33,772 nucleotides of DNA, from positions 1-33,772 of the forward strand of contig CALVZA010000023.1 in the NCBI GenBank assembly GCA_944372415.1. The letters run 5' to 3'. This stretch comes from an uncultured Bacilli bacterium. Lineage in GTDB: Bacteria; Bacillota_I; Bacilli_A; RF39; UBA660. Of this stretch, positions 1 through 3,171 are shown in pieces. Position 1 is the stretch's first letter. Each line of letters begins with the position of its first letter. The position numbers and the translations under genes were made by a program. The notes under the pieces are model-generated. The model saw nothing but the letters and a program-made list of their open reading frames with translations. It made no database searches and was not told the origin of the DNA.

Positions 1-2
1 GC

Positions 3-80
3 CCGTCAGTTTCTCTTGCCGCTGGTGCAGAAATTTCAAGCGGAGATGGGACAGTTGGAAATGCGTACATAATAAAATAA
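3..80 (+). CDS. 3' end of a secreted or cell-surface protein gene (5' end outside window)
   Basis: Frame 3 is open from the window edge and encodes about 25 residues ending SGDGTVGNAYIIK before TAA at 78-80. A tail of the form P-x-(V/I)-S-L ... SGDGT ... N-x-Y is common at the C-termini of surface or prepilin-like proteins of gut Bacilli; that link is from memory of the family. The other two plus frames give arginine- and tryptophan-rich strings that look less protein-like. The stretch is about half G+C, far above the rest of the window, which suggests constrained repetitive surface-protein sequence or transfer. Too little is present to name the protein. Confidence 0.45.
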   Translation, partial: PSVSLAAGAEISSGDGTVGNAYIIK

Positions 81-300: not shown

Positions 301-308
301 GATAAAGT
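301..308. repeat. Left target-site duplication of the IS (GATAAAGT)
   Basis: The 8-bp sequence GATAAAGT lies directly outside the left inverted repeat and is repeated exactly at 2883-2890. An 8-9 bp duplication is usual for the IS256 family. Confidence 0.85.
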
Positions 309-351
309 GGCCTCGTTAACCTAACTGTGTCTTTTGATAAAAAGTTACTAG
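309..351 (+). repeat. Left terminal inverted repeat of the IS
   Basis: It runs inward from GGCCTCGTT through TAACTGTGTCTT to TTACTAG at 345-351. The mate is 2841-2882 on the other strand. 19 of the outer 25 bases match, with a one-base gap further in. Confidence 0.85.
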
Positions 352-2030: not shown

Positions 2031-2816
2031 CTAAAGTACGCATAAAAGCAAATCCTTGTGTTCTTTATATAAATAAGAAATAATAGAGTTCCATTCTTTT
2101 TTAGGAGAATACATTTTTAATTCAAAAGATTTAATAGTGGGGATAAGTTGTTCTTCAAATTCAGTTATATTATAAAAATAAGGTTTAGAATGAGATATAA
2201 CATTTAAATTTTTATTGATTTCTCTAATAAAATAGAAAGAAATAATATGTTTTCTTAAAAACAAAGGATAATTAAGAAAAGAAGAAAAATAATTAAATTC
2301 TTTGTTAAGAATATCAATAATAAAAGGTGAATCTTGATATAAAAGAAATAATTCATTTTTTCTAAATTCAAACTCATTAATATCATAAGAAAAATAAATA
2401 AGTTTTAAATGATTAAAAATGTTATTTGAGTAAGAACAAGACATGTAGTGAGATAACTTGTTAATAATATTAGAACAAGAATAAAAATAAGAAATGTTAG
2501 GGAAAGCTAAATCAAAAGCATTTTTAATTAGTGGATTGTTAGGCATAGATACAAAGAATATGTGTTCTAAACCTCTTTTTTTAAGAGATAGAAGAAAATT
2601 ATACCAATCAGAAGATTTGGAATATTCATCTTCAAAAATAGAAGCAATATACTTTCTAACACCATTAATATTACAACCAATAATAGTGTAAATAGTTCTT
2701 TTTTTAATATAGTCATTACCAAAGTTGAAAAAGACATCTTGAGAGAGAATAGAGAAAGAAAAGAAAACTTTATCTAAATCTCTTTTATAAATTTCATTTA
2801 TTGTTTGATTATTCAT
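2031..2816 (-). CDS. Degenerate, catalytically defective transposase paralogue carried by the IS
   Basis: This 261-residue protein aligns with residues ~185-445 of the neighbouring transposase and lacks its N-terminal DNA-binding part. Matching segments include SLKKRGLEHIFFVS against DLKDRGVKEILYIIS, IKNAFDLAFPN against IKDAIKSEFPN, YPLFLRKHI against LPINIRKYI, and EWNSII...HKDLL against NWNNIF...HKDIL. The SDG motif carrying the second catalytic Asp is S-M-P (residues 90-92). The RCVVH histidine is lost, and the TNxxxE motif is not kept, although a glutamate (E199) is one residue away. The first Asp cannot be aligned with certainty. The start is ATG 2814-2816, with GGAGG 10 nt upstream. The frame is intact and has a good RBS, so this does not look like a dead gene. 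Likely roles are a regulatory or structural partner of the transposase, such as a dominant-negative inhibitor or dimer partner; that is inference. Confidence 0.75.
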   Translation of the reverse strand: MNNQTINEIYKRDLDKVFFSFSILSQDVFFNFGNDYIKKRTIYTIIGCNINGVRKYIASIFEDEYSKSSDWYNFLLSLKKRGLEHIFFVSMPNNPLIKNAFDLAFPNISYFYSCSNIINKLSHYMSCSYSNNIFNHLKLIYFSYDINEFEFRKNELFLLYQDSPFIIDILNKEFNYFSSFLNYPLFLRKHIISFYFIREINKNLNVISHSKPYFYNITEFEEQLIPTIKSFELKMYSPKKEWNSIISYLYKEHKDLLLCVL

Positions 2817-2840
2817 AAAATAAAAACCTCCTTCAATCAA

Positions 2841-2882
2841 CTAGTAAAATCTTATCTAAGACACAGTTAATTGAAAAAGGTC
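2841..2882 (-). repeat. Right terminal inverted repeat of the IS
   Basis: Read on the minus strand from 2882 it begins GACCTTTTTCAA, then TTAACTGTGTCTT, ending TTTTACTAG at 2841. It pairs with 309-351 and lies just upstream of the accessory gene's RBS, so the IS promoter is likely within or next to it. Confidence 0.85.
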
Positions 2883-2890
2883 GATAAAGT
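2883..2890. repeat. Right target-site duplication of the IS (GATAAAGT)
   Basis: Exact copy of 301-308, directly outside the right inverted repeat. Confidence 0.85.
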
Positions 2891-3171
2891 TGCATATTAC
2901 ATTTTATTTTATAATTTATATATGAATTGTAACATCGTTTAAATATTGTTAAACCTAAATTAAATAGAGATAGTATTCGTATTGGTTTATTATTTTTATC
3001 ATATTTAACATATCTTATATTTAAATTCTTTTTTACATCAATATAATTTTTTGAATAATCAATACCGATAATACTTAACCATAAACTTGCAAAGCAAACT
3101 AGACTATATAAATTTTCATAAGCGTGCAAATTTCTAGTTTTATTTTTTTCTAAATTAAATCCGTCTTGCAA
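2883..3171 (-). pseudogene. C-terminal fragment of an IS4-like transposase, interrupted by the IS
   Basis: About 96 residues beginning QDGFNLEKNKTRNLHAYENL and followed by a hydrophobic helix resemble the C-terminal end of IS4-like DDE transposases, where a K-x-x-(G)FNLE segment precedes a helix of leucines and alanines. An in-frame TGA lies two codons upstream of the only start-like codon (TTG 3169-3171), and no N-terminal or catalytic part is present, so the gene is broken. The open frame now runs 50 bases into the IS. If the IS and one GATAAAGT copy are removed, the frame would end ...MQLYL-stop at 296-298, so the IS landed one codon before the old stop codon. Confidence 0.6.

Follow-up and report, generated by a model that had tools for sequence, protein, structure and literature searches.

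A two-gene IS256-family insertion sequence encoding a catalytically dead transposase paralogue, a putative co-subunit of the transposition complex

We describe an IS256-family insertion sequence from the genome of an uncultured Bacilli bacterium that carries, between its terminal repeats, a second gene encoding a catalytically dead paralogue of its own transposase. Relatives of this gene, here termed the accessory gene, were found throughout the corresponding transposase clade; the persistence of an intact dead copy in at least ten genera suggests that it does a job in or on transposition. We infer that the accessory protein serves the transposition complex as a non-catalytic co-subunit, a reading to which we assign a probability of about one half. 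The window is the whole stretch of DNA that was analysed (33,772 nucleotides), and coordinates without another locus name refer to it.

Results

The mobile unit

The element spans positions 309-2882 (2574 bp), with both genes lying between imperfect inverted repeats and with an exact 8-bp repeat of the target sequence at the outer edges (Table 1). IS256-type elements are known to generate target duplications of 8-9 bp (PMC3942029). By our own arithmetic, an 8-bp match is expected by chance with a probability of about 1e-4 at the local base composition; the duplication is thus unlikely to be accidental, and it indicates that the accessory gene moved together with the transposase gene. For the same element, the possibility of an unrelated gene lying beside an insertion sequence was rejected, because the accessory gene is inside both the terminal repeats and the target duplication.

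Table 1. Features of the two-gene element in the window
Feature	Position	Strand	Basis
Target-site duplication, copy 1, GATAAAGT	301..308	.	Exact 8-bp match to 2883-2890, at the outer repeat edges
Right terminal inverted repeat GGCCTCGTTAACCTAACTGTGTC, downstream of the transposase gene	309..331	+	17/23 positions match the left repeat
IS256-family transposase, 447 aa	652..1995	-	D194, D278, C299/H302 and E383 all present
Accessory gene, 261 aa, catalytically dead paralogue of the catalytic and insertion domains	2031..2816	-	Homology, motifs, predicted fold
Left-end leader hairpin (predicted); start of the left repeat pairs with the Shine-Dalgarno region	2825..2882	-	MFE -23.6 kcal/mol, z -6.5
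Shine-Dalgarno sequence AAGGAGG of the accessory gene	2826..2832	-	Sequence
Left terminal inverted repeat GACCTTTTTCAATTAACTGTGTC, upstream of the accessory gene	2860..2882	-	17/23 positions match the right repeat
Target-site duplication, copy 2, GATAAAGT	2883..2890	.	Exact 8-bp match to 301-308

The terminal repeat motif recurs at the ends of seven relatives. Perfect 8-bp duplications were found in five elements, i.e., the one in the window and four relatives (TAAAAACC in G373, AAAAGATT in G203, CGTATTCT in G282 and TTTATATA in G327). The elements of G463 and G163 have the repeats and no matching 8-bp duplication; in G296 the contig stops at the left repeat, and duplications were assessed only where contigs extend past the element ends. 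The sequence GTGTAA, to be compared with the IS256 subterminal TGTAAA, is present in six of the eight mapped elements, and the remaining two (window and G373) read CTGTGTC there. Two-gene elements are 2.16-2.57 kb long, versus 1.34-1.52 kb for 17 single-gene IS256 elements mapped by the same criterion, and the difference is approximately the size of the accessory gene.

Two observations concern the insertion sites. A 112-aa frame without a Pfam match (window 2833-3171) ends within the left end of the element, and the gene that was there before the insertion appears to have been severed just short of its last codons. GC-rich patches of 80 bp (53-61% GC, in otherwise AT-rich DNA) are found no more than about 700 bp from several two-gene copies (L035, i.e., G000:C35, 720-850; L039, left flank; L041, right flank; L103, both flanks; window 1-75); the patches are at the 3' ends of genes that resemble the targets of diversity-generating retroelements, and the G463 copy is flanked on its left by the terminal part of a reverse transcriptase gene (Pfam E 2e-10). 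A patch of at least 50% GC was detected at 4 of 12 two-gene versus 0 of 24 single-gene sites, with flank windows that differ slightly between the two groups.

A paralogue of the catalytic half of the transposase

The accessory gene is the first of the two, starts with ATG about 10 nt downstream of its Shine-Dalgarno sequence and is separated by 35 nt from the transposase gene, in agreement with a preliminary description of this DNA that had reported an intact frame, a good ribosome-binding site and the same spacing. That description had also aligned the encoded protein with the catalytic half of the transposase, and this was borne out: BLASTP gave 24% identity over 232 columns (E 1e-12), and the Pfam Transposase_mut model matched the transposase (E 2e-76) and, over profile positions 147-357, the accessory protein (E 1e-12). 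A profile built from the accessory protein and its relatives matches the solved ISCth4 transposase at residues 159-406 only (E 2e-36), a stretch that, by alignment, is the catalytic plus insertion domain; the accessory protein lacks the N-terminal dimerisation and DNA-binding domains, the latter absence having been recognised in the preliminary description. The losses listed there (the SDG motif, the histidine of RCVVH and the TNxxxE motif) were correct, and, beyond these, the first catalytic Asp is also gone from the window accessory and the Cys of CxxH is replaced by Ser.

With the NCBIfam transpos_IS256 equivalog model, the transposase scores 286.8 bits (cut-off 150), whereas the accessory proteins score 57-88 bits; annotation pipelines can be expected to miss them, because these scores fall under the curated IS256 cut-off. 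Apart from the RNase H-like and insertion domains, no DNA-binding module was revealed in the accessory protein by Pfam or by the predicted structure. The pI is predicted to be 8.4-9.4.

Two other explanations for the upstream frame were discarded. A single transposase that has been frameshifted or split is excluded, because both parts hold the same catalytic half and are thus paralogues rather than halves. Programmed frameshifting, as reported for ISMich2 (PMC3942029), is excluded because the upstream protein is self-contained and begins at a start codon of its own.

Relatives and association of the two genes

Whole-genome searches recovered ten further accessory genes, all from the same bacterial family and from nine further genera. 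Eight of them are complete and are followed by a transposase gene on the same strand (G373, G327, G203, G104, G282, G296, G463 and G477), one of these transposases being cut by a contig end; in G510, the contig end falls inside the accessory gene. The G104 accessory has a shortened N-terminus, and a recognisable left repeat is absent from this element. In G163, an accessory gene stands alone between terminal repeats in an 885-bp element (L037, 4718-5602); its frame is open and encodes 221 aa with a shortened C-terminus, and no IS256 transposase was detected in this assembly, which is 94% complete. This accessory-only element may be a relic, a non-autonomous passenger or a kept repressor.

All eight full-length transposases of the two-gene clade have the accessory gene upstream. 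When the profile of these transposases was compared to a draw of 356 genomes, there were five matches at 655-680 bits, all of them two-gene, and the next match, at 450 bits, belongs to the single-gene group, with none in between; hence a transposase of the two-gene clade without the accessory gene was found neither among the eight full-length sequences nor in this draw. Conversely, an accessory-like upstream ORF was absent from all 38 full-length single-gene transposases that were compared.

The accessory gene was not found outside this bacterial family in 395 genomes drawn from the class, nor in any of 80 IS256 loci on viral contigs. Pattern-based searches of genome and viral contigs with the window accessory or transposase, and of viral contigs with the accessory of a relative, returned no match, the relatives being too diverged for such searches. 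Phage and plasmid protein searches yielded only 19-26% identity among the matches listed, the level expected of ordinary transposases; for example, the best phage match to the accessory of a relative (MT835651) lies within a 413-aa transposase ORF that groups with single-gene elements, and was rejected.

In every assembly searched, one two-gene copy was detected per genome. Contig 35 of the window genome holds a transposase fragment (83% identical, 69 residues), which is a remnant and is left aside in the comparison of two-gene and single-gene elements. G296 contains both a two-gene element and a single-gene IS256 relative (contigs C24 and C83); this co-occurrence is a natural setting for asking whether the accessory protein acts across elements.

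Loss of the active site, phylogeny and selection

Five catalytic positions were scored (ISCth4 D175, D241, C262, H265 and E348). All five residues are kept in the 38 single-gene transposases and in every two-gene transposase that covers the site. In the accessory proteins (11/11), the first Asp is replaced by a hydrophobic residue, the Cys of CxxH by an invariant Ser, and the catalytic His and Glu are lost; an Asp is aligned at the second catalytic position in only 3 of the 11. There are also conserved positions, including Tyr and Lys positions, that are found only in accessory proteins.

Maximum-likelihood analysis placed the 11 accessory proteins in a single clade (100/99) and the single-gene transposases in a second one (98/100), with the two-gene transposases between them; the branching order of the accessory proteins mirrors that of the two-gene transposases. 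It should be noted that some branches of this tree are long and that the program warns about joins between them. On this phylogeny, the accessory gene is shown to have a single origin: an IS256-type transposase gene was duplicated, and the copy was truncated at its N-terminus and lost the active site. The accessory and transposase genes have been passed on together as a unit. A recent tandem duplication is excluded, as the accessory proteins form one old clade.

The dN/dS values (NG86) of four close accessory pairs are 0.16, 0.13, 0.15 and 0.18, and those of the transposases of the same pairs are 0.21, 0.21, 0.15 and 0.09; third-position differences in the close pairs are about threefold those at the second position. 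Judged by these substitution patterns, the accessory gene is under purifying selection in the close pairs. For the window accessory compared to G510 and G373, dN/dS is 0.6-0.8 (NG86), with synonymous sites saturated, so that the value is uninformative either way and the evidence in this sub-lineage is the retained open frame. According to our calculation, neutral drift at 0.2-0.5 substitutions per site would place 9-19 stops in frame. The accessory gene evolves fast in the window's own sub-lineage, with 28% identity between accessory proteins where the transposases share 56%.

Predicted structure and a shared change in the insertion domain

The window accessory was modelled with AlphaFold2, using an alignment of window proteins and viral-contig homologues (mean pLDDT 86.8, pTM 0.82). 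The model has the RNase H-like order of strands and helices followed by insertion-domain helices; since the alignment consists mostly of active transposases, this predicted fold is not independent of the homology. The best PDB matches in Foldseek are ISCth4 complexes (E as low as 1e-15; TM 0.79-0.83, normalised by query length), followed by the Hermes and P-element transposases.

Towards the end of the insertion domain, ordinary IS256 transposases carry a near-invariant series of residues: a Trp, followed by Tyr-Pro and finally by Trp and Asn. The first Trp is present in 38 of 38 single-gene transposases and is kept in none of eight two-gene transposases, in all of which the Tyr column is deleted; the accessory proteins are also without these Trp, Tyr, Trp and Asn residues. 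According to our alignment to ISCth4, this segment comprises the end of helix 10, the loop between helices 10 and 11, and helix 11. In ISCth4, the interface of the two insertion domains after strand transfer is made by two loops, one between helices 8 and 9 and one between helices 10 and 11 (PMC7780238). The change shared by the two proteins is suggestive of a place for the accessory protein in the transposition complex and is not proof of it; the loss of Trp and Tyr could reflect relaxation or ancestry rather than a shared interface.

Expression and the leader

The accessory stop codon overlaps the transposase start in G104, G463, G477 and G203 and precedes it by 9-35 nt in other elements, an arrangement that resembles that of a coupled pair. 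In five relatives, TATAAT occupies bp 8-13 of the left repeat, and TTGACA (TTGAAA in G463) is read outward from the right repeat at bp 6-11. The junction promoter of ISCth4 and IS256 has its hexamers at those same repeat positions (PMC7780238). IS256-family elements move by copy-out/paste-in through a circular intermediate; a circle with the predicted junction promoter would transcribe the accessory gene first. The candidate hexamers are degenerate in the window (TTAACG/TTCAAT), G373 and G163.

The leader hairpin predicted in the window has the same design in G373 and G510 (z -7.8 and -8.1). In the window, the computed probability that the AGGAG core is unpaired is 0.0 for RNA that starts at the element end or outside, and 0.78-0.82 for RNA that starts inside the left repeat; for the ribosome sites of the window, G373 and G510 together, the corresponding values are 0.0 for read-through RNA and 0.55-0.82 for RNA that starts 19-22 nt inside. 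Thus, in the window's sub-lineage, the leader is predicted to hide the accessory ribosome site in read-through RNA, and would silence both genes there until the element's own transcript is made. The other relatives have a shorter hairpin with a T run, and their ribosome site is mostly open. At the left ends of L039, L103, L041, L038 and L042, the left repeat is followed by a short hairpin and then by a run of T immediately ahead of the accessory ribosome site. This terminator-like structure could stop read-through RNA from outside. Other insertion sequences are known to block read-through expression.

Discussion

The preliminary description had proposed that a dead paralogue is retained as a built-in part of the element, and this is supported by the association of the two genes, by dN/dS and by the predicted fold. 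The observations that it had named as grounds for rejection were not made: relatives of this transposase clade do not lack the gene in the genomes searched, and the predicted protein has the RNase H-like fold, together with an insertion domain. The selection test that it had suggested indicates purifying selection in the four close pairs, and is saturated in the window's sub-lineage.

If the accessory protein is a co-subunit, it would join the complex via its catalytic and insertion domains, since it has no domains with which to dimerise or to read the terminal repeat in the way that the ISCth4 transposase does. The most likely contact would be the insertion-domain surface that, once the first strand has been transferred, closes over the junction DNA; there, the accessory protein would assist in holding or positioning the second end, the spacer or the target. 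The gene order, with the accessory gene first and the transposase start near or overlapping the accessory stop, would provide for joint production of the two proteins.

Several lines of evidence favour the co-subunit: (i) both genes lie inside one pair of repeats, with perfect duplications in five elements; (ii) the accessory proteins form one clade, the branching of which mirrors that of the transposases; (iii) the gene shows low dN/dS in close pairs, no stops, conserved Ser, Tyr and Lys residues and a retained predicted fold; and (iv) by analogy, dead paralogues position the PiggyMac transposase in Paramecium. The placement within the transposition complex follows mainly from the change of the insertion-domain segment in both proteins, and it is this change, together with a gene that was never found lost, that makes us lean to a structural partner rather than a regulator, the other role suggested in the preliminary description, although a regulator is also conceivable. 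Against the co-subunit stand the accessory-only element of G163, which fits better with a repressor acting in trans, and the fast evolution of the accessory gene in the window's sub-lineage, where dN/dS is saturated. A stronger version, which we put forward tentatively, is an obligatorily heteromeric machine composed of an active transposase and an element-encoded dead paralogue, with the insertion-domain interface changed in both and the dead subunit taking the non-cleaving side of the asymmetric IS256 reaction.

The G163 element is also the best argument for a dedicated inhibitor, which would act at the catalytic/insertion-domain interface or at the DNA tip and lower transposition, like the Tn5/IS50 inhibitor or KP: an open-frame accessory gene persists there in an assembly where no transposase was detected. 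By its sequence, the accessory protein is inactive and lacks the end-recognition domains, and, as the product of the first gene, it should be at least as abundant as the transposase. The detection of a single two-gene copy per genome points in the same direction, although weakly, because draft assemblies collapse repeats. However, more active derivatives should sometimes shed an inhibitor gene, and none were found in the draw of 356 genomes; moreover, truncated-transposase inhibitors usually poison the complex through dimerisation and HTH domains, which the accessory protein does not have. We consider an inhibitor a serious but rather unlikely alternative.

An action outside the complex, as a regulator of the element's promoter or leader or as a binder of a host protein, appears improbable. 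The predicted pI is compatible with nucleic-acid binding, and a strong, lineage-specific leader structure lies directly before the gene; however, no DNA-binding module was found besides the RNase H-like and insertion domains, and the shared change of the insertion-domain segment points to the complex itself. That the ORF is a decaying or chance remnant, e.g., half of an older transposase gene overrun by the element, is hardly credible despite the 24% identity to the transposase and the unresolvable dN/dS in the window's sub-lineage, and is refuted for the accessory family as a whole by eleven intact frames in one clade where neutral drift would give 9-19 stops, by dN/dS of 0.13-0.18 in close pairs, by the confident predicted fold and by the identical position of the gene in every element.

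The co-subunit reading bears on a question of mechanism. In asymmetric IS256 transposition, two identical subunits must act differently at the two ends. Since the ISCth4 structures appeared, what imposes this asymmetry has been a live question (PMC7780238). If the roles are split between an active and a dead subunit, the present elements would be a natural test of this asymmetry; if the accessory protein is an inhibitor, they would be insertion sequences, minimal in other respects, with a built-in brake that is encoded by a gene of its own.

Searches of the literature (open-licence papers only) yielded no published two-gene IS256 element with a dead paralogue. The transposase family, the catalytic residues, the 8-bp target duplications and terminal repeats that begin with GA/GG and have a TGTG core are as in ISCth4 and IS256, and the candidate -35/-10 hexamers of five relatives sit at the positions reported for the ISCth4 junction promoter (PMC7780238). 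Unlike IS256 and ISCth4, the latter of which has a single ORF (PMC7780238), the present element carries, between its left repeat and its transposase gene, a second gene for the dead paralogue of the catalytic plus insertion domain. A plain organisation was reported for all 109 IS256-type elements surveyed (PMC3942029); the single-ORF organisation, which is not found here, is customary and is not the basis of family assignment.

Maize MuDR, an element of the Mutator superfamily with a transposase gene (mudrA) and a second gene (mudrB), bears a likeness to the present element; to our knowledge, mudrB is not a transposase paralogue, unlike the accessory gene. The PgmL proteins of Paramecium are dead paralogues that bind and position the PiggyMac transposase and are required for accurate excision (PMC6143343). 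Like the accessory proteins, they are faster-evolving than the active transposase and kept by selection (PMC6143343); however, they are encoded by PiggyBac-type genes that a eukaryotic host has domesticated, whereas the accessory gene is element-borne, bacterial and of the IS256/Mutator superfamily. The inhibitor of Tn5/IS50 and the KP protein of the P element share with the accessory protein that they are element-encoded, transposase-derived and non-catalytic, and possibly also an action in trans. They are truncated products of the transposase gene or deletion derivatives, whereas the accessory proteins, which lack the N-terminal DNA-binding region and form their own clade apart from all transposases, are neither a product nor a deletion derivative of the same transposase gene and are encoded by a separate, ancient paralogous gene.
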